Origin: an uncultured Opitutia bacterium | GTDB taxonomy: Bacteria > Verrucomicrobiota > Verrucomicrobiia > Opitutales > Opitutaceae | Length of the DNA: 64,000 bases | Assembly (NCBI GenBank): GCA_903902745.1 | Contig: CAIUWA010000048.1 | Coordinates: forward strand, 62,001 to 126,000 | Direction: 5' to 3' | In this document: positions 14,050 through 29,768 of the stretch, piece by piece | How positions within the stretch are numbered: the first letter of the stretch is position 1 | Layout of the letters: each line of letters begins with the position of its first letter | Program-made: the position numbers and the translations under genes | The notes under the pieces: model-generated | Databases searched by the model: none | What the model saw: only the letters and a program-made list of their open reading frames with translations | Told to the model about the DNA's origin: nothing

Positions 14050-14066
14050 AGACGTTCGTCCAACCA

Positions 14067-14189
14067 TTTTTTGCCACGAAAAGGCACAAAAAATCTATGG
14101 CTGCGGCACGAATCGCTATTGCGCCTATAGGCGCGCGGAGGATTCAAGCCGGAGCCTTGGAATTTTTTAGGCCTTTTCGTGGCAAAAAA
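14067..14189. repeat. MITE/REP-like inverted repeat, 18-bp perfect arms
   Basis: The left arm TTTTTTGCCACGAAAAGG (14,067-14,084) is exactly complementary to the right arm CCTTTTCGTGGCAAAAAA (14,172-14,189). Similarity continues inward (CACAAAAAAT against ATTTTTTAGG), giving about 28-nt imperfect arms around an 87-nt centre. It fills the gap between two genes and keeps a frame open upstream of the next gene, which would otherwise suggest a false N-terminal extension. No transposase and no clear target duplication were seen. Confidence 0.75.
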
Positions 14190-14192
14190 TCC

Positions 14193-14981: not shown

Positions 14982-15182
14982 ACCCCGAGGCGGCTGAAAG
15001 ATCGGCTGCCGACCATAGCGGCAGAGCGAGATAAATTCTTCCGGGTGCATGATGCAGGAAGGCTGCTTGGGCTGATTGCCAGCGGTGGGCGCAGGCGGAG
15101 AAAATGGCCGTTGGGCGGTCGTCGCTGGTATTATTGGACCGGACGGCGCATGGCATATGGCCTGCTTAAGGGAGGCACCCTC

Positions 15183-17618
15183 ATGACCAAACCTATCCTC
15201 GCGCTCGCGGCCCTCTTGGCCTCGTCCCTGCAACTCGCCGCCCAAACCGCGGCTCCCGCCAAGACGAGCGACATGCCCACGGGCGAACCCATAAAAATGG
15301 ATGCGTTCGAAGTAAAGGACGTGCCGATCGCGCAGCAGATCCTGCCGACGGCGCGGCCGTTCAACTCCGTGTTCGGCACGGACGACAACATCGTCAGCGT
15401 GCCGCGCAATGTGACGATCATTTCCAGCCAGCAACTGCGGGACATCAGCATCGATAGCGTGCTTGATTTCTCGAAGCTCACTTCCAGCGCCTACACGACG
15501 ACCAACTTTGGCGCCCCCTCCAACCCGAGCATCCGCGGCCAAACGGCCGATTTGTTCATTAACGGCGTGCGGGGCCGCATCACCAGCAACGGCAACGGTC
15601 TCCCGCTCGACTTCAACTCGGTCGAGTCAGTCAACATCGTAAAGGGGCCTGCTACAGCCGTGCAGGGCACCTCGATGTACGTCGGCGGTTTCATCGATCT
15701 CATCACCAAGCGCCCGTATTTTGACGGTTTCAAGGGCTCGGTCAGCGCGACCATCGGCTCGTACTCGCAAAAGGAGTGGACGGTCGACGTGGGTGGCCCG
15801 ATTTCCCCGCAGACCGCCTACCGCTTCAGCTATTCAGGGCAGGACAGCAAGGGTTACTGGCACGACTACTACAACAAGAACCACTCCATTTACGGCGCGC
15901 TCACGTTCAAGCCCTCGCCCCAGTACGAGATATTCTTCAACACGACCGCGGCCTTCTACCGTTATACGGAAAACTGGGGTATCAATCGTCCGACTCAGGA
16001 CCTGATCGACAACGGCAACTACATGACCGGCATCAATAATAATCCGGCGCCGGATGCCTCGGGCAATTACTTCGACTCAACGGGAAAATTGATCGCGCTT
16101 TTCCCGATGAATCTCGGCACTCCCGCGGGTCCCGCGGCGCCGCAATCCGATGCCCAGAATTCAAAATGGGTGACCTCGGGTTACCCGGTCTCGAACCGCG
16201 TGGTCTTCGGGCCGACCGTGCAGATCGACCGGCACGCCCGTCTGCTCATGCCGGGCAATCATTCCACCGGCCGCGAGTTCAACTTTCAGGCAATCCAGAC
16301 TTACATCGGGAGCCCTGACTTCCGGGTCATCAACAATACCTTCTGGAGCTACACCGCGCGCAATACGCTGAGCACCTATTATTACTCGGAAATCATCGAT
16401 CCCTCCTGGTTCGCCGAGAACCGGACGGAATTCATCTTCAGCAAGCCGAAGTATTCGATCAACGCGGGGCTCGACCTGCGCTACCAGCGGACCAAGGCGT
16501 ACGATGATTACTTCTTCGAGCCGGCCAACGTGTGGGACATCACCAAAGACCTTACAGCGGTGAACGTGTACAACTCGGTCAACTTCCCCGCCTTCGTCAC
16601 CAGCCGGCCCGTTCCGGGCTGGCCGGGCCGCTATGCCACCGCGGGCATCATGAACGGTGATTCGAACGACAGCCACGGCACGACGATTGGGCCCTTTGCG
16701 CAGGCCACCTGGAAGTTCGGCGAGAAATTCGACTTTGTCACCGGGGCCCGGCTGGACCGCTTTACCGCCCATGTGCGTGAACCGCTGACAGTCCCGGCCT
16801 TCATCTGGCCGGTGGACCACGTCGAGCAGAGCATCACGGTGACGAATCCGAACTACAACGGCAGCCTGATTCTCAAGCCGACGACAACCTCCAGCGTTTA
16901 TCTGACCTACAACTACAGCAAGAACACGTCCGGCGCCGTCGGCAACGGCGGTGGCATCACGGGCTGGGCGAACAACCCGGCTGGCGACTTCCTTGGCTAC
17001 CTGCAGAAAGACAGCTTCACGCAGCCCAGCGAGCTGCTGGAACTCGGCACCAAATATGCCCTGATGAACAGCAAGGTGTTCCTGAACTTCGCGGTCTACG
17101 ACCAGAAGCGCACGTTCAAAAGCACCAGCAGCACGATCATCCAGAAATTCCACACCCGGGGATTTGAGGCCGAGCTCAACTACCAGCCGGACAAGCATTT
17201 TTACAGCACGTTGTCCTATTCGGCAATCGATGCGACCACGACGGCCGGCTTTCAGTCGGATGGCGGCGTGGGGGCATTCTACAATTCCAAGAGCGGGGAG
17301 GGACGGGTTTCCGGTCTGCCCAAGAGCCTCTTTAACGGCTTGGTCTCTTATGTGTTGGACAACGGTATCGGCTTCACCGCGAACGCCGTCGTCACCAGCC
17401 CGATCAACAACAACTTCGCCGGCACACTGGTCATTCCATGGCAGTATTCGATCGATGCGGGCATTTCCTACCACTCCAAGGCCTGGGAATACCGTTTGAA
17501 CATCTCCAATGTGACCAACGAGAAAAATTGGGCTCCTCCCAACGCGGTTTACGGCAACGCCTCCATTCTGGCGCTGCCGGGCACCCAGGGGCAGCTCACG
17601 GTCAAGTATAGTTTCTAA
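15183..17618 (+). CDS. TonB-dependent outer-membrane receptor
   Basis: An 811-residue receptor. The signal peptide is MTKPILALAALLASSLQLAAQ, and IKMDAFEV at residues 37-44 is a plausible TonB box. The plug domain follows (about 60-175; IRGQTADLFINGVRGRIT and VESVNIVKGPATAVQGTSMYVGG), then a long aromatic-rich barrel ending in QLTVKYSF. The ATG at 15,183 has GGAGG 8 nt upstream, which decides it over the longer frame open from 15,045. A strong terminator follows at 17,645. The substrate is not readable; the permease and deaminase genes downstream make purines an attractive guess, but siderophore-type receptors look similar. The 200 bp upstream show no riboswitch I can recognise. Confidence 0.93.
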   Translation: MTKPILALAALLASSLQLAAQTAAPAKTSDMPTGEPIKMDAFEVKDVPIAQQILPTARPFNSVFGTDDNIVSVPRNVTIISSQQLRDISIDSVLDFSKLTSSAYTTTNFGAPSNPSIRGQTADLFINGVRGRITSNGNGLPLDFNSVESVNIVKGPATAVQGTSMYVGGFIDLITKRPYFDGFKGSVSATIGSYSQKEWTVDVGGPISPQTAYRFSYSGQDSKGYWHDYYNKNHSIYGALTFKPSPQYEIFFNTTAAFYRYTENWGINRPTQDLIDNGNYMTGINNNPAPDASGNYFDSTGKLIALFPMNLGTPAGPAAPQSDAQNSKWVTSGYPVSNRVVFGPTVQIDRHARLLMPGNHSTGREFNFQAIQTYIGSPDFRVINNTFWSYTARNTLSTYYYSEIIDPSWFAENRTEFIFSKPKYSINAGLDLRYQRTKAYDDYFFEPANVWDITKDLTAVNVYNSVNFPAFVTSRPVPGWPGRYATAGIMNGDSNDSHGTTIGPFAQATWKFGEKFDFVTGARLDRFTAHVREPLTVPAFIWPVDHVEQSITVTNPNYNGSLILKPTTTSSVYLTYNYSKNTSGAVGNGGGITGWANNPAGDFLGYLQKDSFTQPSELLELGTKYALMNSKVFLNFAVYDQKRTFKSTSSTIIQKFHTRGFEAELNYQPDKHFYSTLSYSAIDATTTAGFQSDGGVGAFYNSKSGEGRVSGLPKSLFNGLVSYVLDNGIGFTANAVVTSPINNNFAGTLVIPWQYSIDAGISYHSKAWEYRLNISNVTNEKNWAPPNAVYGNASILALPGTQGQLTVKYSF

Positions 17619-17644
17619 GGCAAAGCCGGTCCGGCTTCAAGGGG

Positions 17645-17672
17645 GGCCGCCCGAAGTCGGGCGGCCTTTTTT
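17645..17672 (+). terminator. Rho-independent terminator after the TonB receptor
   Basis: A perfect 9-bp stem GGCCGCCCG / CGGGCGGCC closes an AAGT loop and is followed by six T residues. It lies 27 nt after the receptor stop, so the receptor is transcribed apart from the permease downstream. Confidence 0.92.
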
Positions 17673-17762
17673 ATAGCCCCATGCCTGGACGGCATGAGTC
17701 CGGCTAAGCTTTCTGTTGCGCAAGGAATCCCGACCTGTCGCATCTCCTGCCCGCTTATCCTC

Positions 17763-19097
17763 ATGGAAGTCCTGCCGCCTCCCATCACCGCCTCCTCCAC
17801 CACGGGCATTGTTTATGGCCTGGAGGATCGCATCCCACTGGGCACCGCCATCCTCGTCGGAGCCCAGCATGTTTCCGCCATGGTGGTCGGCACGATCACG
17901 CCGCCCCTCATCCTAGCGAGTGTGCTCAAGTTTTCGCAGGCCGACACCGCCTATCTCATCAGCGTTGCGCTGCTCGCCTCCGCACTCGGCACCTGGCTGC
18001 AGTGCCGCCGGCGCGGCCCCGTCGGATCGGGGTTGCTGAGTGTCACGGGCACCAGCTTCGCCTTTCTGCAGCCGCTGACGGTCGCCGGCCAGGCCGGTGG
18101 CCTCGCGTTGATGCTGGGCCTATCATGTGTCACGGCGCCGATTCTAATTGTGTTGGCGCCCTTTGTCTCGCGGTTGCGGAAGGTCTTCACGCCGCTGGTT
18201 TCGGGGGTGGTCGTGCTGCTCATCGGTGTTTCCCTCATTCCCACTGCGTTCTACGGCCTGGCGGCGCCGGTCCACCCAGGTTCACCACCGTGGCTCAGCC
18301 TGGTCATTGGCCTGGTGGTCATCGCGGTCATCGTCGGGGCGCAAGCCACGGGACGAGCGTGGGCGCGCATCGCGGGTGCGGCCTGTGGCGTGATCGTCGG
18401 TTGCATCGTCTGCGGCCTGGCCGGCGGCCTGCATGCGCCCGAGCCGGCGTCCGGCGCCTGGTTCACGCAACCGCGGCTGCTTCCGCATGGCTTTGCCTTC
18501 GATTGGAAATTTGTGCCGCCGTTCGCCTTCATCTATCTCGTGTCAATGCTTGAGGCGATGGGCGACATCACGGCCACCTCGCAACTTTCCGGGCTGGTCA
18601 CGACCGGACCGGAGCACTGGCGGAGGATTTCGGGCGGGGTGCTGGCCGATGGGCTCAACAGCACGGTCACCGCTCTCTTCGGCGGTTTCCCCAGCGCGAC
18701 CTATGCGCAGAACAACGGCGTCATCCAGATCACGGGCGTGGCCAGCCGGCGCGTGGGTTATGTCATGGCGGTCATGCTCGCCCTGCTGGGACTGTTCCCT
18801 GCCATCGGGCGCTGGGTAACAGTCATGCCGCCCTCCGTCCTTGGCGGGCTCGCGCTGATGATGTTTGGCCTCGTAGCGGTCGCGGGCGTGCGGCTCCTGA
18901 TCGGTGCCGGGCTGGGTCAACGCGAGGGCGTGATTGTGGCGCTCGCGCTGGGGGTCGGGCTCGGGCTGCCGACCCAGCCTGCGCTTCTCGGCAGCCTGCC
19001 GGGATTTCTGCAATCACTGCTGGAGTCAGGTATCTCGGCCGGCGGGCTGACGGCACTGATCCTGAATATTCTCTGGCCCGATCGAAGAGCCGGCTGA
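17763..19097 (+). CDS. NCS2/NAT xanthine-urate-uracil permease
   Basis: A 444-residue inner-membrane symporter of the nucleobase-ascorbate family with about 12-14 hydrophobic segments. Diagnostic motifs are GLEDRIPL near the start, ILVGAQHVSAMVVG in TM1, and QNNGVIQITG at about residues 316-325, which fits the family signature (Q/E/P)NxGxxxxT(R/K/G); a Gln at its first position favours xanthine or urate over uracil in characterised members. ATG 17,763 leaves the usual short tail before the first helix; ATG 17,694 is an alternative adding 23 residues. The 8-oxoguanine deaminase gene starts 42 bp downstream, probably co-transcribed. Imports purine bases by proton symport. Confidence 0.88.
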   Translation: MEVLPPPITASSTTGIVYGLEDRIPLGTAILVGAQHVSAMVVGTITPPLILASVLKFSQADTAYLISVALLASALGTWLQCRRRGPVGSGLLSVTGTSFAFLQPLTVAGQAGGLALMLGLSCVTAPILIVLAPFVSRLRKVFTPLVSGVVVLLIGVSLIPTAFYGLAAPVHPGSPPWLSLVIGLVVIAVIVGAQATGRAWARIAGAACGVIVGCIVCGLAGGLHAPEPASGAWFTQPRLLPHGFAFDWKFVPPFAFIYLVSMLEAMGDITATSQLSGLVTTGPEHWRRISGGVLADGLNSTVTALFGGFPSATYAQNNGVIQITGVASRRVGYVMAVMLALLGLFPAIGRWVTVMPPSVLGGLALMMFGLVAVAGVRLLIGAGLGQREGVIVALALGVGLGLPTQPALLGSLPGFLQSLLESGISAGGLTALILNILWPDRRAG

Positions 19098-19139
19098 GCC
19101 CTTGCTCCCGCCGGGCCTCCGGCATTCGCTGCTGTCACC

Positions 19140-20504
19140 ATGGGCACACTGCTCGTCAAAAACATCCACACGCTCGTCACGATGAACGCGGCGCGGGAGG
19201 AAATCCGCCATGGCGCCCTTTTCGTGCGCGACCATGTCATCGAGCAGGCGGGCGCGGCGGCGGCTCTTCCACCGGTGGCGGATGAGGTGCTGGATTTGCA
19301 GGACCGGCATGTCGTGCTCCCCGGACTGGTCAACACGCACCATCATTTCTACCAGACCCTCACTCGCGCGATCCCGGCGGCGCAGAACTGTGATTTGTTC
19401 CAGTGGCTCAAGGCGCTCTATCCCCTCTGGGCGGGACTCACGGCGGAGGGAGTCTACGGCAGTGCCCGGATGGCGGCGGCGGAACTGATGCTCTCGGGCT
19501 GCACCACGACCAGCGACCACCTCTACCTTTTCCCGAACGACTGCACGCTCGATGACGAGATTCGTGCCATGCAGGAAATGGGGATGCGCTTCCATGCTTG
19601 TCGAGGCAGCATGAGCGTGGGGGAGAGCCAGGGCGGCCTGCCACCGGATGTGCTGGTGGAAAAGGAATCGGCCATCCTCCGCGACAGCGAGCGGCTGATC
19701 GCGCGCTACCACGACCCGGCGCGCCATGCCCGGCTGCGGATCGCGTTGGCGCCCTGTTCGCCCTTTTCCGTTTCGCGTGACCTCATGCGCGAGTCGGCCG
19801 TGCTGGCCCGCACTCACGCCGGCGTGCGCCTGCACACGCACTTGGCTGAAAATGCCGCGGACGTGGCCTACAGCCTGGAGAAATTCGGTCTGACGCCCGG
19901 AGATTATGCCGAGTCGGTAGGCTGGGTCGGTCCCGAGGTGTGGCACGCGCACTGTGTGCAGCTGAGCGACGACTCGATCGCGAAGTTCGGCCGCACCGGC
20001 ACCGGCGTGGCGCACTGCCCGTGCAGCAACATGCGCCTGGCCAGCGGCATCGCCCCGGTGAGGAAGATGCTTTGCCAGGGCGTGCCGGTCGGTCTCGGCG
20101 TGGACGGCGCGGCGTCAAATGACGCTTCCAATCTCCTGCACGAGGCCCGCGCCGCCTGCCTGCTGGCACGCGTCGGCGAACAGGATGCCTCGGCCATGAC
20201 GGCGCGGCAGGCGCTGGAACTTGCGACCCTTGGCGGCGCGCGCGTGCTGGGGCGAGATGACATCGGGAGCCTCGAGCCGGGCATGGCCGCCGATTTTATC
20301 GCGATCAACCTCGACCGTCCCTCATTTGCTGGCGCCCAACACGACGTGGTCGCGGCGCTGGTGCTTTGCCAGGCGGATGCGGTGGATTATAGTTTCATCC
20401 ACGGAAAGCGTGTCGTCGACCAAGGCCGGCTGACCATGGTGGAGTTGCCGCAACTGGTGGAGGAGACAAACCGGCTGTCAGCGCAGCTGCTGGCGGAGAT
20501 TTGA
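19140..20504 (+). CDS. 8-oxoguanine deaminase (amidohydrolase)
   Basis: A 454-residue cytoplasmic amidohydrolase of the guanine/8-oxoguanine/chlorohydrolase group. Metal and catalytic positions are all visible: NTHHHFYQT (HxH), LHTHLAENAADV (His, Glu), WHAHCVQL (His), GLGVDGAASND (Asp). The combination NTHHHFYQTLTR, SDHLYLFP and GVAHCPCSNMRLASGIAPV matches bacterial 8-oxoguanine deaminases, which turn 8-oxoguanine into urate. It follows the NCS2 permease on the same strand, so the pair likely imports and deaminates purine bases. A weaker alternative is a guanine or isocytosine deaminase. A convergent hairpin separates it from the opposite operon. Confidence 0.85.
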   Translation: MGTLLVKNIHTLVTMNAAREEIRHGALFVRDHVIEQAGAAAALPPVADEVLDLQDRHVVLPGLVNTHHHFYQTLTRAIPAAQNCDLFQWLKALYPLWAGLTAEGVYGSARMAAAELMLSGCTTTSDHLYLFPNDCTLDDEIRAMQEMGMRFHACRGSMSVGESQGGLPPDVLVEKESAILRDSERLIARYHDPARHARLRIALAPCSPFSVSRDLMRESAVLARTHAGVRLHTHLAENAADVAYSLEKFGLTPGDYAESVGWVGPEVWHAHCVQLSDDSIAKFGRTGTGVAHCPCSNMRLASGIAPVRKMLCQGVPVGLGVDGAASNDASNLLHEARAACLLARVGEQDASAMTARQALELATLGGARVLGRDDIGSLEPGMAADFIAINLDRPSFAGAQHDVVAALVLCQADAVDYSFIHGKRVVDQGRLTMVELPQLVEETNRLSAQLLAEI

Positions 20505-20536
20505 GCGGGACACCGGCAAACGGTATGTCCCGGCTC
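20503..20536. terminator. Convergent hairpin between two purine operons
   Basis: GAGCGGGACA pairs with TGTCCCGGCTC (one bulged G), with an inner CCG/CGG pairing. The hairpin spans both stop codons in the 30-bp gap between convergent genes. There is no T-tract, so it is a candidate bidirectional stop, not a classical intrinsic terminator. Confidence 0.4.
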
Positions 20537-21887
20537 AGGCGCCGAAGAAGCGCTTCAAGGCCGGCACGTACAAGCCTTGGAAAATGTGCAGGAAGAAGAG
20601 CACGGCCAGGCCGTAGGTGAAGGGAGTCAGCGTCCGGCCGCGGCCGGTGGCGAGGGCGATGAGGGTGAGGGCGATGACGCCCATGCCGAGGCCCTCGGCA
20701 ATGCTGAACGTTAGCGGGATGCACAGCAGGGTGACCACGGCTGGCATCGTCTCGGTAAAGTCATCCAGTTTTATCTCAGCGACGGTCTGGAACATGAAGA
20801 CGCCCACAACGACCAGTGCAGCGGCCGTGGCGGCGCTGGGGATGATCAGGATCAGGGGGGTGAGGAACAGCGCGAGCAGGAAGCAGATCGCGGTGGTGAT
20901 GGCCGTTAGCCCGGTGCGCCCACCGGCCTCGACGCCGGAAGCGGACTCGATGTAGCTCACGACGGTCGAGGTGCCGAAGAGTGAGCTGATGATGGCGGCG
21001 AGCGAGTCGGCGACGAGCGCCCGGCCGGCCTTGGGCAGGGTGCCGTCGGGCTTCAGCAGGCCGGCGCGCTTGGTCACGCCGATCAGGGTGCCGATGTTGT
21101 CGAACATATCCACGATGAGGAGCGTGAGCATGATCGGCAGCGCGAGGGAGAAATGCTGGAGCAGGAAATCGAAGTTCAGCTTCAGCATCACGGGCTCGGG
21201 CGAGGCCGGGCGGGAGAAGATCGACGAGGGCATGGGCGTCACATGCCCACCTTTGCCGTCCGGCACGAACAGGCCGACGAGGGTGATGACGAGGATCGAG
21301 AGCACGATCGCGCCCGGCACGCGGCGCGAGACCAGCACGGCGGTCAGCACAATGCCGAAGAAGGCGAGCGCGACCGGCGGGGAGCCGAAGTTGCCCTGCG
21401 CCACGAAGGTCGCGGGGTTGGCCACCACGATGCCGGCGTTCTTCAGGCCGATAAAGGCGATGAAGAGCCCGACGCCGCAGGTGATGGCGATCTTCAGCGA
21501 ATACGGGATCGACTGGACGATCTTCTCGCGCACGCCGGTGAGTGACAGCAGCAGGAACGCGACGCCGTTGACAAAAACGAGGCCGAGGGCCGACTGCCAC
21601 GGCACGCCGGCGCCGAGGCAGACCGTGTAGGTGAAGTAGGCGTTGATGCCCATGCCCGGGGCGAGGGCGATTGGGAAGTTCGTCATCAGGGCCATCAGGA
21701 TGGTGCTCATCGCCGCGGTCATGGCCGTCACGGTGACGAGTGCGGCCTGCGGCATCCCGGCGTCCTTCAGGATGAGCGGATTAACCGCGAGGATGTAGGC
21801 CATCGCGGTGAACGTGGTGAGGCCGGCCTGCAGTTCACGCCGGACGGTAGTGCCGGATTGGTCGAGTTTGAAGAAACGATTGAGCAT
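20535..21887 (-). CDS. AzgA/PbuG-type purine permease
   Basis: A 450-residue NCS2-superfamily permease of the AzgA-like branch, with about 12-13 hydrophobic helices. Family marks: LDQSGTTVRRELQAGLTTFTAMAYI near the N-terminus, NPLILKDAGMP, APGMGINAYFTYTV, and VDMFDNIGTLIGVT in the middle. Characterised members import adenine, guanine or hypoxanthine with protons. It is the last of four minus-strand genes; its start is 19 bp after the stop of the exported nucleosidase-like gene, so it probably takes up bases freed in the periplasm by the three proteins encoded upstream. Confidence 0.92.
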   Translation of the reverse strand: MLNRFFKLDQSGTTVRRELQAGLTTFTAMAYILAVNPLILKDAGMPQAALVTVTAMTAAMSTILMALMTNFPIALAPGMGINAYFTYTVCLGAGVPWQSALGLVFVNGVAFLLLSLTGVREKIVQSIPYSLKIAITCGVGLFIAFIGLKNAGIVVANPATFVAQGNFGSPPVALAFFGIVLTAVLVSRRVPGAIVLSILVITLVGLFVPDGKGGHVTPMPSSIFSRPASPEPVMLKLNFDFLLQHFSLALPIMLTLLIVDMFDNIGTLIGVTKRAGLLKPDGTLPKAGRALVADSLAAIISSLFGTSTVVSYIESASGVEAGGRTGLTAITTAICFLLALFLTPLILIIPSAATAAALVVVGVFMFQTVAEIKLDDFTETMPAVVTLLCIPLTFSIAEGLGMGVIALTLIALATGRGRTLTPFTYGLAVLFFLHIFQGLYVPALKRFFGA

Positions 21888-21906
21888 GGAAATAGCAGGG
21901 GGAGCG

Positions 21907-22734
21907 TCAGGGGGTGCGCGCCGGCATCGGCATGGCCAGCGGAGGTAGATTTTCCAGGAAATTCAAGGTAAACAATCCGGTTGCCCGGGCGGCGGACGCA
22001 TTAAAGGGCACGCCCTCGTAGGGCGCGTCGCTCACGACGCGAAAGGCGATGTAGCGGATGCCATAGGCGCGGGCGACAGCGGCAACGTGGCCGGACTCCA
22101 TCTCCTCGACATCCATGCCGAAATTCCGCGCGGACCAGCGCACGCGGTCGAGCTCGAGGTTGACCTCATGCGCCGACCCGATCACGCCCGCAAACACGCG
22201 ACCCATCGGGTTGCGGCTGCGCAACGCGACCGCGAGGGCGGCGGGGTCGCCGGCAAATCCCTCAGGGTAGGGCACAAGCTGACCGGACACGGGATCGCGC
22301 AGGCGCTGCGCCACAGGCGTCCAAGCCATCGGCGAACTGCCCTGGCCGGCGGCCGTGACGGGCGAGATGAAATTGCCGTAGTCAAGCGCGCGCTGCCCGA
22401 CGATGATGTCATGCAGCGTGAGATAGGGCGCCTGGGCGCCGCTGGTGCCCTCGTTGACGATGAGGGTGGGATGAAACTCCTCGATCCCGATGACGGTGGC
22501 CGTCGTGCAATTGATCAGGGCCTGGCCGGTGAGCGAGACGGCGACGCGGTGCGGCCCGATATGTCCGATCCAAAAGCTGAAGGGACCGATCGTGACCTTG
22601 CGCGCCTCGGGCCCAAGCCCGGCGATGAGTTCGCGGACCTCGAGTTTTTCGGCGCCCTGCACGAGGACATCGACCGGCTCGGCGGCGCGGAGGACGCTGG
22701 CGAGCGCCAGCAGCAGGAAAAATGAGCGTCTCAT
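21907..22734 (-). CDS. Exported MTA/SAH nucleosidase-like protein
   Basis: A 275-residue protein with a signal peptide (MRRSFFLLLALASVLRA) and a nucleoside phosphorylase/nucleosidase fold. The nucleoside-binding Met-Glu is in DVEEMESGHVAAVA and the catalytic Asp in FRVVSDAPYEG, as in MTA/SAH nucleosidases. A Gly-rich strand LIVNEGTSGAQ matches the family core. The frame stays open far upstream, but the ATG at 22,734 overlaps the preceding stop in ATGA and starts a clean signal peptide. An exported location is unusual, since characterised bacterial homologues are cytoplasmic. Likely releases a purine base from nucleosides in the periplasm; substrate not determined. Confidence 0.82.
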   Translation of the reverse strand: MRRSFFLLLALASVLRAAEPVDVLVQGAEKLEVRELIAGLGPEARKVTIGPFSFWIGHIGPHRVAVSLTGQALINCTTATVIGIEEFHPTLIVNEGTSGAQAPYLTLHDIIVGQRALDYGNFISPVTAAGQGSSPMAWTPVAQRLRDPVSGQLVPYPEGFAGDPAALAVALRSRNPMGRVFAGVIGSAHEVNLELDRVRWSARNFGMDVEEMESGHVAAVARAYGIRYIAFRVVSDAPYEGVPFNASAARATGLFTLNFLENLPPLAMPMPARTP

Positions 22735-23489
22735 CGCCAGGCCTCCACAAAGCGCCGGGCGAAATCCGCGGCATCGGCCGCCGTGCCGTCCACGACGCGC
22801 ACGCCGAGCACGGGCACGCCGAGTAGCGCGGCACAACCGGCGATGTGGGCGGATTCGCCGTCCTCGGTGCTCGTGTGCCACATCGTGTGCAGCCAGGCGA
22901 CCCGGTCGGCCTCGCGGTTGACCTGGTTGGCGGAGCCGAGCACGCCGCGGAGCACGCGGCCGTGTGGAGACGTGAGGGCCAACGCGACGGACAGCGCGGG
23001 GGCGTCGGCGGGAAAGGTCATGGCCGGTGTTTCCTTCTCGCCCGCCGTCATCAGGAGGTGGGGCAGCTGCTGCCATTGCAGCGGATGAATGCCCTGTCCG
23101 AGGCTGGACGGCGGAGAAAAAAGTCCATCGAAGGCGGCAAAACTTTCGCTGACCACGATGTCCCCGGCCTTGAGCGCCGGATCGTGCGCCCGGGCGCTGC
23201 CATAGGAGAGAATCAGTCGGGGAGCATGCAGGCGGATGGCGAGCGTCGTCGCGGCCACCGCATTGAGCGGATCGCCTTCGCTGCGCGCGAGCAGGACGGA
23301 TTTGCCGGCCAGGGTGCCGCGCCAGAAGGTCCAAGCGGCATGCGTCTCACTCTTGGACTGGCCGAGTTGTTGCACGAGCGGCTGGAGGAGCGCGTCGTCC
23401 GCGGCGATCAGCAGCAGGTCAACCTTCTCCGTCTGGGCGCGCGCCACGACCGCGACGCAAAACACGCAAAAAAGGAACAGGCGCTTCAT
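22731..23489 (-). CDS. Exported nucleosidase-fold paralogue with altered active site
   Basis: A 252-residue protein with a signal peptide (MKRLFLFCVFCVAVVARAQ). It aligns along its length with the next gene: ATTLAIRLHAPRLILSYGSA corresponds to TATVIGIEEFHPTLIVNEGT, and GSANQVNREADRVAW to GSAHEVNLELDRVRW. The active site differs. The Met-Glu-Ser stretch is EDGESAHIAG, and the Ser-Asp of RVVSDAPYEG is replaced by RVVDGTAADA. It may have a shifted specificity or be inactive. It overlaps genes on both sides by 4 bp (ATGA), so the three are translationally coupled. Confidence 0.75.
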   Translation of the reverse strand: MKRLFLFCVFCVAVVARAQTEKVDLLLIAADDALLQPLVQQLGQSKSETHAAWTFWRGTLAGKSVLLARSEGDPLNAVAATTLAIRLHAPRLILSYGSARAHDPALKAGDIVVSESFAAFDGLFSPPSSLGQGIHPLQWQQLPHLLMTAGEKETPAMTFPADAPALSVALALTSPHGRVLRGVLGSANQVNREADRVAWLHTMWHTSTEDGESAHIAGCAALLGVPVLGVRVVDGTAADAADFARRFVEAWR

Positions 23490-24556
23490 GGCTGGGGTGC
23501 CTCCGGCAAGTGATCGGAATAGCGACTCCAGTTGGCGACGAGTTCATGGACCACGCGGCTGCCTACGCGATACGCTGCCTCGAGCGATGGAAGATACGCG
23601 CTGTAGATCCCGAGTTGCTCCCCGCTCATGCTTTCGGCCGCGGTGGCTCCGGGCCATTGCATATCGTAATTGCTCGCCGTGCGCAGCACGAGTACGCGCT
23701 TGGGATCGGCCCGGCCGGCGCGCCCGAGGTAGGTGAGGGAGCGCAGCGTGCCGCTGTCCTCCATCGCGGTGGTCACGTAGTTGCCCTTGCCATCGGTGTA
23801 GTAGCCGACCCAGGCGTTGGCCCACTGGTTAAGCAGCTTGCCGTGCCAGTAGGTGCTGCCGGCGAGATTGGCCCCGATCATCACGAAGGGCGGACGCTGG
23901 GCGTTGGGCGAGCCGGTGTAGGTGGCGCGACGCTTCTGCATTTGTTCGTTGTCGATCAGAGGAGTGTCACGGGTGAGTTGCCAGGCCCATTGCACCAGTC
24001 CGGGATCCAGTTGGTAGAACTGGCCGGCCGCATAGTCTTCGGTGCGGCGTGGTTGCTCATAAGGGCGGCTCTTCCCGAGCGGCACGTAGCCGCTCGGCCA
24101 GCCGTCGGGAATTTCCCGTGCATCAATCTCGTGCGCCAGATCGCCGTCGACGACGTAGTCGGCCCAGACGGCGGAGCCGAGAGAGGCGTCGGCGGGGTCG
24201 ATTCCGGCGATGCCGGCCACGAGCCAGTAGCTCTGGCGCAGGTCAAAGCGCGGATCGCAGCCGAGCGCCATGATCGAGGCGGCTGCGTTGGTGTTGCCGA
24301 CTCCGGTCACGAGGCCGATCACCGAACCATTGGCGTTGGCCCGCACGTCATGGCTTGCGGCGGGTAGGGGAATGACGCGATCCAAGTGCTCACGCTCAAC
24401 CCAGAATTGAAACTCGCCGGGGGTGTCTCCGGTGTCAGCGCCGGGTTCGAACATCGTCACCACGACCACCTTGGGTCGGATGAGATCCGCCGCGGCGTGG
24501 GCGGACGGGAGGAAGCCTCCCAGCAGGGTAAGGCCGAGCAGCGGGCGAATAATCAT
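23486..24556 (-). CDS. NUP-family purine nucleoside-binding protein, exported
   Basis: A 356-residue protein with a signal peptide (MIIRPLLGLTLLGGFLPSAHA). It matches the NUP family (named after the Candida purine nucleoside permease; a nucleoside phosphorylase-like fold): RPKVVVVTMFEPGADTGDTPGEF, YWLVAGIAGIDPADASLGS, WADYVVDGDLAHEIDAREIP, TAMEDSGTLRSL and VLRTASNYDMQWPG. Despite the name it has no membrane helices beyond the signal, so a soluble periplasmic enzyme or binding protein is more likely. The open frame continues upstream but the ATG at 24,556 begins the signal peptide. First gene of the minus-strand purine operon, divergent from the hydrolase at 24,629. Confidence 0.85.
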   Translation of the reverse strand: MIIRPLLGLTLLGGFLPSAHAAADLIRPKVVVVTMFEPGADTGDTPGEFQFWVEREHLDRVIPLPAASHDVRANANGSVIGLVTGVGNTNAAASIMALGCDPRFDLRQSYWLVAGIAGIDPADASLGSAVWADYVVDGDLAHEIDAREIPDGWPSGYVPLGKSRPYEQPRRTEDYAAGQFYQLDPGLVQWAWQLTRDTPLIDNEQMQKRRATYTGSPNAQRPPFVMIGANLAGSTYWHGKLLNQWANAWVGYYTDGKGNYVTTAMEDSGTLRSLTYLGRAGRADPKRVLVLRTASNYDMQWPGATAAESMSGEQLGIYSAYLPSLEAAYRVGSRVVHELVANWSRYSDHLPEAPQP

Positions 24557-24628
24557 GGTGGACCGGATTAGTTGCCAAAGCACGGCCTGTGCCGCCGGTC
24601 GAGTTGCGGATTGCGCGGGGGCAGCGGA

Positions 24629-25531
24629 ATGACGAATGGTTTTGGGATGCCGGTCACCGACAGCCATGTTCACCTTTATCCGCCCGAGGCCAACCGGGAT
24701 CCGGCGGGCTGGGCGGCGGCCCGGAAGGAAACCCATTGGGCCACCCTGGCCACGCGGAGGCGCAAGGATGGCCGGCCCGTCCAGGGATTTGCCGGAGTGG
24801 AGACACTGCTGCGCGCGATGGATGCCGCCGGCATCGCGCGCGCTGTGCTGCTCGGCTGGTATTGGGAGCACGCGGAAACCTGTGCCGAGCAAAACCGGTT
24901 CCATGCGGAGTGCGTCAGGCTGCATCCGGACCGTCTGTCCGCCTGTGCCTCGCTGCATCCCGCCGCTGGCCGGGTGGCGACTCTGGCCGAGGTGCGCCGG
25001 GCGTGCGATGAAGGCCTGATCGGGTTGGGAGAGCTGTCGCCGCATTCCCAGGGTTATGCCGTGGATGATCCGGTATTCCGCGAGGTCCTCGCGCTGGCCG
25101 CGGACTTGAAACTGCCGGTCAACCTGCATGTCACCGATCCCGACAGCCGCGATTTTCCCGGCCGGGTGGCGACGCCACTGGCGGACTTCACGCGGCTGGC
25201 GACGGAATTCCCGGGAACGACCTTCATCCTGGCCCACTGGGGTGGACTGCTGCCGTTGCGCGATCCTGCCGCGCTCAAGCTGACGAATGTCTTTTATGAT
25301 ACGGCCGCCTCACCGTTGCTATATGGACCGGAAATCTGGCACCGATTTATTGACGCCGTGGGGGCGGAGCGCGTTTTGTTTGGATCGGATTTTCCGCTCA
25401 ACCTTTATCCCAAACTTGAACTCGAAGCCGAGCTTGGGCGGTTGGTGGAGGAAGCGCGCAGCTCCGGTCTCGCGCCGGATGGTTTGGCTGCTGTTTTCCA
25501 CGATAACGTAGCGCGAATTTTCCGACTGTAG
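24629..25531 (+). CDS. TIM-barrel amidohydrolase (ACMSD/PDC-hydrolase type)
   Basis: A 300-residue metal-dependent hydrolase of the amidohydrolase-related family. It starts with MPVTDSHVHLYPPE (HxH metal site), has GELSPHSQGYAVDDPVF in the barrel, LPVNLHVTDP (His), TFILAHWGG (His) and VLFGSDFPLNLYP (catalytic Asp). These match ACMSD-like or 2-pyrone-4,6-dicarboxylate hydrolase-like enzymes, not TatD nucleases. ATG 24,629 has GGGGGCAGCGGA just upstream; the open frame before it is ignored. It is divergent from the purine operon with only 72 bp between, so they may share control. Substrate unknown. Confidence 0.8.
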   Translation: MTNGFGMPVTDSHVHLYPPEANRDPAGWAAARKETHWATLATRRRKDGRPVQGFAGVETLLRAMDAAGIARAVLLGWYWEHAETCAEQNRFHAECVRLHPDRLSACASLHPAAGRVATLAEVRRACDEGLIGLGELSPHSQGYAVDDPVFREVLALAADLKLPVNLHVTDPDSRDFPGRVATPLADFTRLATEFPGTTFILAHWGGLLPLRDPAALKLTNVFYDTAASPLLYGPEIWHRFIDAVGAERVLFGSDFPLNLYPKLELEAELGRLVEEARSSGLAPDGLAAVFHDNVARIFRL

Positions 25532-25542
25532 GAGCGGGTAGC

Positions 25543-25634
25543 GTAGGGCCCGACCTTGGTCACGGCCGGTTTGGGACGATAGCGCTGCTGGACGAAGCGC
25601 AGAAGCGGAGAGGCCCGAGCAAGCTCGGGCCCTA
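25543..25634. repeat. REP-like inverted repeat, GTAGGGC...GCCCTAC family
   Basis: GTAGGGCCCGA near the left end is complementary to TCGGGCCCTAC at the right end (11 bp perfect). The right end also forms a hairpin of its own, GGCCCGAGC-AA-GCTCGGGCC. It sits between two convergent genes. The same GTAGGGC/GCCCTAC ends occur at 33,132-33,245, so this is a dispersed family. Confidence 0.65.
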
Positions 25635-26912
25635 CAGAGAGGGATAAGCGCGCCACTGTTGCAGCGCCCAGGGGATCACGGGACTCTGCAGGTGGTTGAC
25701 GATCACTTGGAGCCCGGTGCTCAAACCGGAGGGAAGAGTCACGGGCAGCGTCAGTACGGGAAGGCCACCGAGGCTAACGGGAGTAGTGAGATCGAGCAGG
25801 CGCACGCGATTGGCCTGGTTGCATTCCACCTTCGTCAGAGCGGGACAGGGGGTTGCAGGCATAACCAGATAATCGAAGGTCAGGAAATAACTCGCCCAGA
25901 CGGATCGCACCGCAGTGCGGATAATTGCGGCGCTCGCACGCTCCTCGTCGGTCAGGTGCCGCCCGCGATCAATTCGCTCCCAGACCGTCGGGCTGTAGCG
26001 GGCCCGGTGTGAATCAAGCCAGCGGGCGTGGGCTGAGGCGGCCTCGAGGGCGGTCTGCACACTGTAACTGCCGGTGGCTCCGGCGAAGGCGTGAGCCAGA
26101 GCACCGCGGGTTGCCTCATCCGCGGGTGGACAAAGTTTGCCGGCTGCCATGCGGCAGGCCGCCGCCACATCGGCGTCGAGTTCTCCGAGTTCGAGGTAGC
26201 AGCCATGCAGCTTGCGCTGGCTGGAGCCGAGCCCGAGGAGTGCAGAATTGGCGGCGGCCAAGTCGTCGGCGCGGGCGGTGAACCAGCCCGCGGTATCGAA
26301 ACTGGGTGCAAGCGGAAAGGCATCGGCGATCCAAACGTGCCTGGGCGTCATCCTGAACCCGAACAAACCGCAGAAGGCGGCCGGTACGCGGACGGAGCCA
26401 CCCGTGTCGGAGCCGATGGCAAACGGGACAATACCCGCCGCCACTGCTGCGGCCGAGCCACTGCTGGACCCGCCGGTCGTGCGGCCGGGAAACCGGGGAT
26501 GTTCGCAGTCGCCGTAATTGGGGTTCTCGCCCGTGATGCCATATGCGAATTCATGCAGGTGCGTCTTGCCCGCGCACACTGCACCGGCCAGTCGGAGCGC
26601 CTGCACGAGATGACAGTCGTCGCCAGCTCCCGGCCGCACCTCGGGCAGGAAAGTGGATCCGGCAAGAGTGGGCACGCCGGCGAGATCAAAGAGATCCTTG
26701 ATCAAATACGGCACGCCATGCAGCGGCGCACGGGCATCCGAAGCCGCAAAGGCGGCGGCCAGTGTTTCCTCCGTCGGGAGCCAGGCCACCACGGCGCGCT
26801 GCTGGGCGGGTGAAAGCCGGGTCGCCACCCGCCGGCGCAACTCCCGCGTGGCCCCGGCCGGATCGCCGGCCATCTGTCGCCACTCGGTAAAGCTGTTCGG
26901 CAGTTCGGGCAT
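25632..26912 (-). CDS. Amidase (amidase-signature family)
   Basis: A 426-residue amidase-signature enzyme with the Ser-cisSer-Lys triad positions visible: Lys in GVPYLIKDLFDLAGVPT, the Gly/Ser-rich TTGGSSSGSAAAVAAGIVPFAIGSDTGGS, whose second Ser patch (DTGGS) carries the nucleophile. It hydrolyses a C-N amide bond in the cytoplasm; the substrate cannot be told. Similar enzymes occur next to RidA and in purine or pyrimidine ring-opening pathways, and here RidA and a metal hydrolase flank it. The ATG at 26,912 is the first in frame and gives a normal N-terminus. An inverted repeat lies upstream. Confidence 0.88.
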   Translation of the reverse strand: MPELPNSFTEWRQMAGDPAGATRELRRRVATRLSPAQQRAVVAWLPTEETLAAAFAASDARAPLHGVPYLIKDLFDLAGVPTLAGSTFLPEVRPGAGDDCHLVQALRLAGAVCAGKTHLHEFAYGITGENPNYGDCEHPRFPGRTTGGSSSGSAAAVAAGIVPFAIGSDTGGSVRVPAAFCGLFGFRMTPRHVWIADAFPLAPSFDTAGWFTARADDLAAANSALLGLGSSQRKLHGCYLELGELDADVAAACRMAAGKLCPPADEATRGALAHAFAGATGSYSVQTALEAASAHARWLDSHRARYSPTVWERIDRGRHLTDEERASAAIIRTAVRSVWASYFLTFDYLVMPATPCPALTKVECNQANRVRLLDLTTPVSLGGLPVLTLPVTLPSGLSTGLQVIVNHLQSPVIPWALQQWRAYPSL

Positions 26913-26946
26913 GACTCCATTTCGACAGAGCCAGATCCCAAGGCAA

Positions 26947-27070
26947 GTTTCGCGCAGAGTCGCGGAGGTGCGAAGGCATATGGCTCAAATAAAAACTCCC
27001 CCAATCCGCCCGATCGGCGAATTTATGGTTACGGTTTCACTGCTCTGCGCCTTTGCGTCTCTGCCGAAAC
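26947..27070. repeat. Inverted repeat, GCAGAGACGC family
   Basis: The left arm GTTTCGCGCAGAGTCGCGGA (from 26,947) pairs imperfectly with the right arm GCGTCTCTGCCGAAAC (ending 27,070) and its CTCTGCGCCTTT inner part, over about 28 nt. The centre is AT-richer than the surroundings. It lies between divergent amidase and RidA genes. Any regulatory role is secondary; it looks like a dispersed non-autonomous element. Confidence 0.6.
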
Positions 27071-27125
27071 ATGACCGAACGAAAAATCTTTGCGTCGAGG
27101 AATTTTTGCCTGACGCTTTTGCCAC

Positions 27126-27587
27126 ATGAACCCCGAAGCCCGCCTCGCTGAACTCGGTCTGACGCTGCCCAATCCACCTCCTGCTGCCGGCAGTTATGTG
27201 CCCACCGTTCGCACCGGCAATCTGCTCTATTGCGCTGGCACCGTTTGTGTTTGGAACGGCCAGTTGACCCACACGGGACAGGTGGGCAAGGAGCAGACCA
27301 TCGAGACCGGGATCAAGGCCGCTGAGATCTGCGCGCTCAATACTCTGGCGAACATCAAGGCCGCCACCGGTTCGCTCGACCAGGTGGCGCGGGTCGTCTT
27401 TGTCTGCGGCTTCGTCAACGCGGTGAATGGCTTCACCGACAGCCCCGCGGTCATCAATGGGGCGAGCGAGCTTTTCCTCAAAGTCTTCGGCGATGCCGGC
27501 AAGCACGCCCGCGCGGCGGTGGCGGTCTGCGGCCTGCCACGGGGCTCGACCGCCGAGGTACAGGTGGTCGTGGAACTCAAGCCATGA
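27126..27587 (+). CDS. RidA/YjgF-family enamine/imine deaminase
   Basis: A 153-residue RidA-like protein of the longer type (YjgH/TdcF-like length, not the short 128-residue form). Features: PAAGSYVPTVRTGNLLYCAGTVC, the NTLANIKAATGSLDQVARVVFVCGFV block, and HARAAVAVCGLPRGSTAEVQVVVEL with the conserved Arg that binds the carboxylate. RidA proteins form trimers and hydrolyse reactive enamine/imine intermediates; relatives act in pyrimidine and other N-heterocycle catabolism. It overlaps the next gene by 4 bp, a tight pairing with an esterase. Confidence 0.92.
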   Translation: MNPEARLAELGLTLPNPPPAAGSYVPTVRTGNLLYCAGTVCVWNGQLTHTGQVGKEQTIETGIKAAEICALNTLANIKAATGSLDQVARVVFVCGFVNAVNGFTDSPAVINGASELFLKVFGDAGKHARAAVAVCGLPRGSTAEVQVVVELKP

Positions 27588-28381
27588 ACCCCTCCAACCG
27601 CCCAGGGCGCCTGCTGCACCTGACTCTTCTCGCTGCGCTGGCCATAGGGGTTGTCGCGGCCCAAGCTCAATCGACTCCTCCCTCGGACATGAAACTCTTT
27701 CTCCTCATCGGTCAGTCGAACATGGCGGGCCGCGGGGTCGTCGAGGCGCAGGACAAGGTGCCGCATCCCCGCGTGTTCATGCTCAACGAGCAGCTCGCCT
27801 GGGTGCCCGCGATCGATCCGATGCACTGGGACCGCCCGGATCGGATCGGGGCGGGGCCGGGTTCGACGTTTGGGCGCGTAGTGGCGGAGGCGAATGCGGG
27901 CGTGATGGTCGGATTGATTCCCGCGGCCGTGGGCAGCACTTCTCTCGATCAATGGGCAGTGGGCGGGGAACTTTACACCAACGCCGTGGCTCGGGCCCGA
28001 GAAGCGATGAAGCATGGCAAGCTGGCGGGGATCCTCTGGCATCAGGGCGAGTCCGACAATGCGCCGGAGAAGATCGCCTCTTATCCGGAGCGTTTCGCCA
28101 AAATGATCGCGCAACTGCGTTTCGACCTGAATGCCGGAGACGTGCCGGTGATCGTGGGCGAGATCGGGCGTTTTCACGTCGGAAGCCCGGCCATCAATCC
28201 CATGCTGGCGAAGCTGCCGGCGCGCGTGGCCCTGTGCGCCTGCGTTTCATCCGAAGGCCTCGCGGACAAGGGCGACAAGGTGCATTTCGACACGCCGGCC
28301 GCGCGTGAGTTTGGCCGGCGCTATGCGCAGGCGTGGTACGAGCTGAGCAAGGCCGGACGGACGGCCGGGACGACAAAATAA
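27584..28381 (+). CDS. Sialate O-acetylesterase-like SGNH hydrolase, exported
   Basis: A 265-residue protein with a signal peptide (HLTLLAALAIGVVAAQAQ). KLFLLIGQSNMAGRG carries the nucleophilic Ser of the carbohydrate-acetylesterase (PF03629-like) group, and GILWHQGESDN the second conserved block. A possible catalytic Asp/His pair lies in the C-terminal KGDKVHFDT segment. It would remove acetyl groups from sugars in the periplasm or outside the cell. Translationally coupled to ridA by ATGA overlap, a pairing I cannot explain by pathway. Confidence 0.87.
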   Translation: MNPSNRPGRLLHLTLLAALAIGVVAAQAQSTPPSDMKLFLLIGQSNMAGRGVVEAQDKVPHPRVFMLNEQLAWVPAIDPMHWDRPDRIGAGPGSTFGRVVAEANAGVMVGLIPAAVGSTSLDQWAVGGELYTNAVARAREAMKHGKLAGILWHQGESDNAPEKIASYPERFAKMIAQLRFDLNAGDVPVIVGEIGRFHVGSPAINPMLAKLPARVALCACVSSEGLADKGDKVHFDTPAAREFGRRYAQAWYELSKAGRTAGTTK

Positions 28382-28427
28382 TTTTGCGACCGAACCGCGG
28401 CCCTACGCCCGACCCCAGCGGGGCAGT

Positions 28428-29768
28428 TTACAAGGTCTTGACCAGCACCTTGGCGTTGCGGCCGCTGTCCTCGTAGAGTTTCAGACGGGCGTCGGGCAGG
28501 ATGTCCTTCGTCGTCTCCTCGAAGCCGCAGACGCCGGTGAAGAAACCGAAGCTCTGCGTTGAGAGGGCGATCGCGGTGGTGGCGCCCCGCTCCTTGGCCA
28601 TCAGGCCGGCATACTCGACCATTTTCTTGCCGATGCCACGGTTGTGGTAGAACGGCAGCACGTAGAGCGAGCCGATTTCGGCCAGCAGCGGCTTGCCCGG
28701 ATAGAAATAGAGCGTGACGCAGGCGATGATGTTCTCGTCGACCTCGAACACGAAGAATTGGTCGATGTTTTCCTCGATCGCCTTCTGCGTCCGGTAGACG
28801 AGTTCCTCGCGCTTCACGGCATTGCGCGTGAGGTTGTAGATCAGCCGCACGTCGCGCCGCTGCGCCTTGCGGATCTGCTGGTAGTCGTTGCCGTAGATGA
28901 GCGAGCCGACGCCTTCGCTGGAGAAAATCTCGTTGAGCAGGCCGTCAAAGACCCGGCCGTCGACGACATGCACGCGCGGCGTGCCGGACTCGATGGCCTT
29001 CACGGCATGCTGGGCCTTGCTGAAGCTCGTCTCACCAATCTGCTCGGGATGGTCCTTCAGCAGGGCGCGGAGGACGTCGACCGAGATTTCGCGGCGAACC
29101 TCGCCGTCGATCTCGAGTCCCGGCTGCGGGGTGAGATAGATGACCTTCGTGGCATGGAGGGCCTCGGCGAGCTCGGCGGCGAGCAGGTCGGAGTTGACCC
29201 GCAGGGACCGGCCGTCGGGGCCGAAGGCGATGGGGGACACGACGGGCACGACCTGCCGGTCGATGAGTTCTCCGATGAAATCCTTGTCGATCCGCTCGGC
29301 CTTGCCGGTGAACTGCTGGTCCACGCCCTTGATGATGCCGACCGGGAGCGCACGCACGGCATTGGTCGTGGCGCATTTCAGGCCGTTCTGGGTGAGTCCC
29401 TCGACGAGGGCATGCGCGACCCGCGACGACGCCCGGATGGCGAGGTCGAGTGTGGCGGCGTCAGTCACGCCAGTGCCATCGGCGTTCGTGATCGGAATCT
29501 TGCGCATCACGGAAAGTTCCTGGATCTGCTGGCCGATGCCGTGGACGAGCAGAACCTTGATGCCGAGGCTGCGGAGCACGGCGACGTCGACGAGCAGGTT
29601 GCTGAAGTTTTCATCGGCGATGATGGAGCCATCGAGCGCGATGATAAAAATCTGCCCCTGGAACCTCGGCACGTATTTCAGGATGCCGCGGAGGTCCGTG
29701 GGTTTGATCACCGTCGCCTGCGCGGGGGCCGCGGGGGACGGAGTGGAATTGCCATTGCCGTTGCTCAT
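28428..29768 (-). CDS. argA: N-acetylglutamate synthase, amino-acid kinase plus GNAT fusion
   Basis: A 446-residue protein catalysing acetyl-CoA + glutamate to N-acetylglutamate, the first step of arginine synthesis. Residues about 27-275 are an amino-acid-kinase domain (VLLVHGIGQQIQ, VVSPIAFGPDGRSLRVNSDLLAAELAEAL), which in ArgA binds arginine for feedback. Residues about 300-440 are a GNAT acetyltransferase (IGSLYVLPFYHNRGIGKKMVEYA with the acetyl-CoA loop, and GFFTGVCGFEETTKDILP). The order and length match classical ArgA. The N-terminal 20 residues are Asn/Ser/Pro-rich. The small membrane gene upstream ends 43 bp before it. Confidence 0.93.
   Translation of the reverse strand: MSNGNGNSTPSPAAPAQATVIKPTDLRGILKYVPRFQGQIFIIALDGSIIADENFSNLLVDVAVLRSLGIKVLLVHGIGQQIQELSVMRKIPITNADGTGVTDAATLDLAIRASSRVAHALVEGLTQNGLKCATTNAVRALPVGIIKGVDQQFTGKAERIDKDFIGELIDRQVVPVVSPIAFGPDGRSLRVNSDLLAAELAEALHATKVIYLTPQPGLEIDGEVRREISVDVLRALLKDHPEQIGETSFSKAQHAVKAIESGTPRVHVVDGRVFDGLLNEIFSSEGVGSLIYGNDYQQIRKAQRRDVRLIYNLTRNAVKREELVYRTQKAIEENIDQFFVFEVDENIIACVTLYFYPGKPLLAEIGSLYVLPFYHNRGIGKKMVEYAGLMAKERGATTAIALSTQSFGFFTGVCGFEETTKDILPDARLKLYEDSGRNAKVLVKTL

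Follow-up and report, generated by a model that had tools for sequence, protein, structure and literature searches.

Where does an uncultured Opitutaceae bacterium (Verrucomicrobiota) split purine nucleosides, inside the cytoplasm or before the inner membrane is crossed? The question is raised by a gene cluster in a stretch of 64,000 nucleotides (assembly GCA_903902745.1, contig CAIUWA010000048.1, positions 62,001 to 126,000; the whole stretch is called the window here), which belongs to a genome of 3.29 Mb in 52 contigs with 98% completeness. Three genes for exported-looking proteins, named NUP, PNP2, and PNP3 in this study, precede a gene for a purine-base permease, and three further genes diverge from them. 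This locus probably serves the utilisation of purine nucleosides, which would cross the outer membrane, be split in the periplasm, and yield bases that enter via NCS2 permeases. I put the probability of this reading at about two in three. It rests on gene content, gene order, linkage across genomes, residue conservation, signal-like N-termini, and purifying selection. The genes are as follows (MTAN, 5′-methylthioadenosine/S-adenosylhomocysteine nucleosidase; AF2, AlphaFold2).

23486..24556, minus strand: NUP, of the Pfam "purine nucleoside permease" family, a predicted exported nucleoside-cleaving enzyme (PF06516, E 2.7e-116)
22731..23489, minus strand: PNP2, an exported-looking protein of MTAN fold whose catalytic site is remodelled or lost (PF01048, 8.1e-23; AF2 model; catalytic columns)
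21907..22734, minus strand: PNP3, an exported-looking, predicted MTAN-type nucleosidase with intact catalytic residues (PF01048, 5.3e-24; PDB 5b7g, E 4.9e-41)
20535..21887, minus strand: an NCS2 purine-base permease of AdeP/AzgA type (PF00860, Xan_ur_permease, 1.6e-46; 43% identical to Escherichia coli AdeP)
19140..20504, plus strand: a deaminase of 8-oxoguanine/guanine type, predicted to be cytosolic (NF006055, 681 bits, cut-off 532)
17694..19097, plus strand: an NCS2 permease resembling XanP/PbuX (PF00860, 3.1e-72; 39% identical to E. coli XanP and 26% to UraA)
15183..17618, plus strand: a TonB-dependent receptor, the predicted outer-membrane importer of the locus (PF00593 and PF07715)

The four minus-strand genes stand where an initial annotation, made from the sequence alone, had placed them, and Pfam assigns them to NUP, PNP_UDP_1 (twice), and Xan_ur_permease. 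The translational coupling that it had claimed for the first three is borne out by ATGA overlaps at both the NUP/PNP2 and the PNP2/PNP3 junctions. GGAGG precedes the starts of PNP2 and PNP3, and 19 nucleotides separate the PNP3 stop from the start of the AzgA-type permease gene. The four genes do lie together as the operon described there, but genome comparison widens the unit to the divergent genes for the TonB receptor, the XanP-like permease, and the deaminase at 15183-20504. The gene order of the locus recurs in contigs of metagenome-assembled genomes (MAGs) labelled Opitutae, Opitutus, Lacunisphaera, Opitutaceae, and Verrucomicrobia. Matches resembling promoters (4, with 1.8 expected) and terminators (12, with 7.7 expected) were set aside and used for no claim, and Rfam gave no match at 14000-29000.

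How might the locus work? Nucleosides, or adenosyl compounds related to them, would reach the periplasm through the TonB-dependent receptor. There, judging from fold, residues, and signal-like starts, NUP would split purine nucleosides, while PNP3 would free the base by hydrolysing 5′-substituted adenosines, such as 5′-methylthioadenosine (MTA) or S-adenosylhomocysteine (SAH), or adenosine itself. Hydrolysis is favoured because the equivalent of E12 (see below) is retained. PNP2 may be a subunit that partners PNP3, or an enzyme that has taken on a new specificity. By homology, the permeases of AdeP and XanP types would then carry adenine, hypoxanthine, guanine, and xanthine across the inner membrane, and the cytosolic guanine/8-oxoguanine deaminase would process the bases. 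Periplasmic release of bases followed by import had been suggested by the initial annotation; this is still the best-supported reading and was strengthened by the relatives, except that PNP2 may have no cleaving activity on purine nucleosides.

NUP is a member of its family by a wide score (PF06516, 388.6 bits, cut-off 27). All 35 aligned sequences have E48, E266, and R292, and 34 have S295; at position 296, read by eye from the alignment, 31 sequences carry Asn and four carry Asp. When NUP was compared by hhalign with eight MTAN-type sequences, a probability of 95.6 was obtained over the NUP length, and E48, E266, R292, S295, and N296 were paired with E12, E174, R193, S196, and D197 of E. coli MtnN, respectively. 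The assignment of NUP to the PNP/MTAN fold type is good, by profile and not by structure, and NUP is predicted to be an exported nucleoside-cleaving enzyme despite its "permease" label. No credible PDB match to NUP was obtained by phmmer or by profile search, and viral contigs scanned with NUP gave no relative. Two relatives have two NUP domains in one frame, with 688 residues in L065 (8527-10593, minus strand) and 677 in L072 (8799-10832, plus strand), and both adjoin genes for an adenosine deaminase of twin-arginine type and for an adenine deaminase.

PNP3 belongs to the PNP_UDP_1 fold family (85.3 bits, cut-off 25.1). It stays below the NCBIfam equivalog cut-offs (54.1 against 169 for NF004079 and 26.9 against 73.8 for TIGR01704), so it is placed in an exported MTAN-like branch and is not named an MTAN. 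For both PNP2 and PNP3, the best PDB match is the MTA/SAH nucleosidase 5b7g of Aeromonas hydrophila (1.1e-35 and 4.9e-41, respectively). The AF2 model of PNP2 has a mean predicted local distance difference test score (pLDDT) of 85.3, and its best structural match is 5b7q (Z 29.1, root-mean-square deviation 3.1, 226 residues aligned). The initial annotation had listed PNP2 as a diverged paralogue; it is a paralogue of PNP3 (32% identity) and not of NUP.

The active sites of the two proteins differ. In E. coli MtnN numbering, which is used for all catalytic positions, PNP3 retains the equivalents of E12, E174, R193, and D197 in 12/12 copies; I take these four positions to be catalytic. PNP3 thus has the residues of an MTA/SAH nucleosidase (E12, E174, and D197), and PNP2 does not. 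Among the 11 complete copies of PNP2, the D197 position is Gly in nine and Ala in two, never Asp or Asn, with an acidic residue one place before it in ten. E12 is retained in five and lost in six, including the window copy, which has Leu. E174 is kept in ten, R193 in all 11. G78 is replaced by Arg and F151 by Gln in every copy, and M173 is always replaced. This pattern of kept and changed columns is not simple decay: conservation on the ribose side goes with a remodelled base side. One may speculate that a base site with these Gln and Arg residues could accommodate a pyrimidine as well; uridine phosphorylase presumably has both by the base. Between the window and L096, the ratio of nonsynonymous to synonymous substitution rates (dN/dS) is 0.16 for PNP2, 0.087 for PNP3, and 0.088 for NUP, rough values since dS is about 0.8 to 1.9 in the listed pairs. 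PNP2 is under purifying selection. As for D197, Asn stands there in 4/4 exported-looking MTAN-type proteins from Pantoea, Acinetobacter, Metabacillus, and Photobacterium (4 of the 10 plasmid records matched), and this replacement by itself is therefore no sign of an inactive enzyme. A tree from the same comparison, with 1 of its 10 inner branches starred, was used for no claim.

Are the three proteins exported? The N-termini were scored with a home-made signal-peptide score, not SignalP, calibrated on 26 E. coli proteins taken to be cytosolic (15), exported (2), or of the membrane (9). Cytosolic proteins reached at most 4.98, against 5.39 and 6.03 for the two exported ones; one of the nine membrane proteins scored 6.92. 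The signal peptides claimed at the outset are supported by scores of 5.45 for NUP, 6.85 for PNP2, and 5.97 for PNP3; this leaves PNP2 a comfortable margin and NUP a slim one. The deaminase at 19140..20504 scored 2.38, and two other PNP_UDP_1 proteins of the same genome scored 4.74 and, at an internal start, 4.59. With the window included, 11/12 copies of PNP2 and 11/12 of PNP3 score at least 5; L104 is below for both (2.97 and 4.28, respectively). These segments vary in sequence among the copies and yet remain hydrophobic. For NUP, starts were chosen to favour a signal, which biases its count upward, and the second halves of the two fused proteins were excluded; among 25 relatives, 18 score at least 5, three score 4.65-4.95, and four have no signal. 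The last four (L078, L080, L085, and L086) are order-level relatives, and a cytosolic NUP branch may exist.

Do PNP2 and PNP3 belong together? Pairs were sought with PNP2 or PNP3 in close relatives, a search that could miss distant single copies. This gave 12 distinct loci (the window, L061, L081, L094, L095, L097, L098, L099, L100, L101, L103, and L104); L096 is the contig of L061 and L102 that of L094, and each was counted once. PNP2 directly precedes PNP3 in all 12. Near the pair, an AdeP-type permease gene follows in eight, a TonB receptor gene is found in eight (a partial match only in L061), a XanP-like permease gene in seven, and NUP in five. TonB receptors that are 60-77% identical adjoin the same genes in L095, L097, L098, L100, L103, and L104. 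Since PNP2 was detected (at 1e-20) in just 4 of 387 sampled genomes of the phylum, all from the window's family, the pair is a narrowly distributed extension of a more general theme of NUP with permease. The L097 copy of PNP2 (9551-9826) loses its reading frame after 92 codons, with PNP3 intact, which may be gene loss or a MAG assembly error.

The broader theme was examined in 57 genomes, 21 of which have NUP (the window's own included). With 43% identity to E. coli AdeP, 38% to GhxP, and no match to XanP or UraA at 1e-3, the AzgA-type permease of the window falls on the AdeP/GhxP side. An AdeP-type permease (E up to 1e-60) is encoded in 19/21 genomes with NUP against 13/36 others (Fisher p 7e-5). 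It is single-copy in 31 of the 32 genomes bearing it and in 18 of the 19 that also have NUP. In 10 of these 19 it lies within 6 kb of NUP; in G007 the distance is 12.3 kb, in G021, G040, and G055 at least 144 kb, and in G019, G027, G034, G035, and G038 the two genes are on different contigs. Relatives of adenosine deaminase (E up to 1e-40) occur in 10/21 genomes with NUP and in 0/36 others (p 8e-6), within 6 kb of NUP in 5 of the 10. Copies beside NUP were seen in L065, L066, L069, L072, L077, L095, and L097. The starts look exported in five of these seven, Sec-like in L069, L095, and L097 and twin-arginine-like in L065 and L072; the start is weaker in L066 and ambiguous in L077. Adenine deaminase genes stand by NUP in L062, L065, L072, and L077 by Pfam and in L079 and L097 by tblastn, which also found a partial copy about 9 kb from NUP in L068. 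IU_nuc_hydro exceeds its cut-off in 13/21 genomes with NUP and 12/36 others (p 0.05).

Two other kinds of exported-looking protein were seen in this setting. Relatives of SAM hydroxide adenosyltransferase (S-adenosylmethionine, or SAM, hydrolase) with signal-like starts adjoin NUP and TonB receptor genes (L095, 14465-15364; L069, 11302-12114; L098, 4761-5642), and periplasmic release of adenosine from SAM is possible there. A third PNP_UDP_1 type, distinct from PNP2 and PNP3, is encoded near NUP in L062 (8916-9857), L068 (10352-11206), and L071 (6002-6811), with 55-60% identity to the L062 copy. The idea that genomes with NUP lack CNT nucleoside importers was tried and found unsupported (9/21 against 16/36).

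Does the theme occur outside the phylum? There are 47 plasmid records of NUP, and six were examined (L114 to L119). In a plasmid stretch of Sphingobium sp. V4 (L119), genes for an adenosine deaminase, a LysR regulator, and NUP are accompanied by those for another adenosine deaminase (signal-like at its start), a TonB receptor, another NUP, and a Xan_ur permease. Several of these genes directly abut. The other five stretches (L114-L118) are from three betaproteobacterial and two alphaproteobacterial plasmids. A sugar ABC transporter lies near NUP in L117. GTP cyclohydrolase II-family genes were seen near NUP in the verrucomicrobial L066 (12048-13655) and on a Mycetohabitans megaplasmid (L114, 7241-7870), which may be chance.

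A bolder proposal, which I make tentatively and hold to be possible rather than probable, is that a periplasmic nucleosidase needs both genes of the pair, with PNP2 as a conserved pseudoenzyme subunit or as one re-tuned to another base, for example a pyrimidine. The pair would belong to a modular theme in which adenosyl compounds are broken down outside the cytoplasm (its parts being NUP, NCS2 permeases, a TonB receptor, and exported forms of adenosine deaminase and SAM hydrolase), with a version lacking the pair in Pseudomonadota, and the NUP family would consist mostly of secreted nucleosidases.

Can the same genes be read otherwise? Purine feeding may depend on NUP and the permease alone, with PNP2 and PNP3 serving the clearance of MTA, SAH, or S-adenosyl compounds or signalling by them. 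Their closest solved relative is periplasmic and acts on MTA/SAH, and MTA is described as possibly available as a signalling molecule in the accessible part of the discussion of that enzyme (PMC6302742). The exported-looking SAM-hydrolase relatives in L069, L095, and L098 would also suit such a role, as would the pair without permease or NUP in the available sequence of L081, L094, L099, and L101. The position of the pair directly before an AdeP-type permease in 8/12 loci fits the use of freed adenine instead, and I consider clearance or signalling unlikely, though worth keeping in mind. A different view, that all three are nucleoside-binding proteins or sensors of the periplasm rather than enzymes, could draw on the lost catalytic residues of PNP2 and on the Asn or Asp at the acid position of NUP. 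It is very unlikely, given that PNP3 retains every tested catalytic residue and that the four exported-looking relatives above and the A. hydrophila protein, a nucleosidase according to the PDB, likewise have Asn at the acid position. That the N-terminal segments are non-working signal peptides and all three proteins cytosolic is barely credible: the score is home-made and its margin thin for NUP, and the segment is missing in four outer NUP relatives, but the PNP2 and PNP3 segments stay hydrophobic while their sequences change, and the nearest solved relative of both is periplasmic.

Is NUP a nucleoside permease or a transport component after all, as its family name says? According to the accessible part of one report (PMC9431476), the Candida NUP was characterised in yeast as a transporter of purine nucleosides and thymidine. 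It lets an adenine-requiring yeast grow on adenosine, yet the yeast stays insensitive to the adenosine analogue toyocamycin, which was read there as transport with narrower selectivity (PMC9431476, as far as accessible). As I see it, growth with insensitivity would fit cleavage outside the cell followed by adenine uptake equally well. No 19-residue segment of the window NUP exceeds 1.6 on the Kyte-Doolittle scale, whereas the adjoining AzgA-type permease has ten by the same rule, a rule that also misses the NUP signal segment. With the PNP-fold profile match and the invariant Glu, Glu, and Arg positions as well, a permease role of NUP appears highly improbable. Several observations do weigh against splitting in the periplasm followed by base import. 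When NUP was compared by hhalign with the PNP3 set alone or the PNP2 set alone, the values were just 3.7% and 1.3%, and its AF2 model (4 sequences) reached a pLDDT of only 34.4, so its fold rests on profile comparison. The thymidine transport reported for the Candida protein and the signal-less NUP starts in the four outer relatives also count here. In the available sequence, the four pair loci named above have other neighbours and no permease, and the window's genome has no adenosine deaminase relative. CNT nucleoside importers are not rarer in genomes with NUP (p 1); the window's genome lacks one, as do 32/57 genomes. For L114-L118, the incomplete gene tables show neither a purine permease nor a TonB receptor, and no deaminase of adenosine or adenine, within 6 kb of NUP. 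Finally, the Fisher p-values ignore shared ancestry.

Which known systems resemble periplasmic nucleoside utilisation as proposed here? In Bacteroides, the ribose/nucleoside utilisation locus (rus) reportedly combines a TonB receptor and nucleoside-cleaving enzymes in one locus; its enzymes are said to differ in fold from the window proteins, and its route to centre on ribose. Nuh is presumably of the inosine-uridine hydrolase fold, and IU_nuc_hydro is not among the Pfam matches of NUP, PNP2, and PNP3 at 1e-3. The locus proteins would work like Nuh without being members of the Nuh/IU hydrolase family. In the accessible part of a review (PMC5437708), Nuh of Pseudomonas aeruginosa splits adenosine and inosine in the periplasm and the products are then taken up, as is proposed for this locus. 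The A. hydrophila nucleosidase (PDB 5b7g, 5b7p, and 5b7q; called periplasmic in the titles of the sister entries of 5b7g) is, among solved structures, the closest to both PNP2 and PNP3 in sequence and to PNP2 in fold, and is exported. It has Asn where PNP3 has Asp, and it is likened to PNP3 by sequence and export rather than by gene context, PNP3 being paired with PNP2 in every locus. Bgp and MtnN of Borrelia burgdorferi are exported MTA/SAH nucleosidases for purine salvage, as described in the accessible text (PMC7557402); they are like the proteins proposed here by that description, not by sequence or gene context. The Candida albicans NUP is likened by family name, not by sequence, and is treated as a transporter in the text accessible (PMC9431476), whereas the window NUP is read as an exported enzyme.

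Outside the locus, genes for Amidohydro_2, amidase, and Rid-family proteins adjoin it at 24620-27587. This neighbourhood is kept in L070, L076, L079, L097, L103, and L104, even where NUP is missing. A protein of 1321 residues with a long Gln/Gly-rich low-complexity stretch is encoded at 6679-10644, in a gene cluster that I take to be MoxR/BatA-like.

What is new, and what would it mean? The initial annotation had regarded nucleoside cleavage as normally cytoplasmic in bacteria, but periplasmic splitting is already established by Nuh (PMC5437708) and by exported MTANs (PMC7557402 and PMC6302742), as far as the accessible parts of these sources go. In a literature search that covered few subscription papers, so that absence is weak evidence, a TonB receptor-NUP-NCS2 locus, the PNP2/PNP3 pair, and NUP as an exported enzyme were not found. 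The reinterpretation of NUP and the PNP2/PNP3 pair look new. Candidates for the outer- and inner-membrane steps of a periplasmic nucleoside route are encoded in the locus; for Pseudomonas, the outer-membrane and adenine importers are unidentified according to the accessible part of the review (PMC5437708). If the reading is true, a "permease" family of the databases would largely consist of secreted enzymes, and nucleoside transport would be wrongly predicted from genomes, perhaps also in fungi. It would also extend the known uses of dissolved nucleosides by Verrucomicrobiota.

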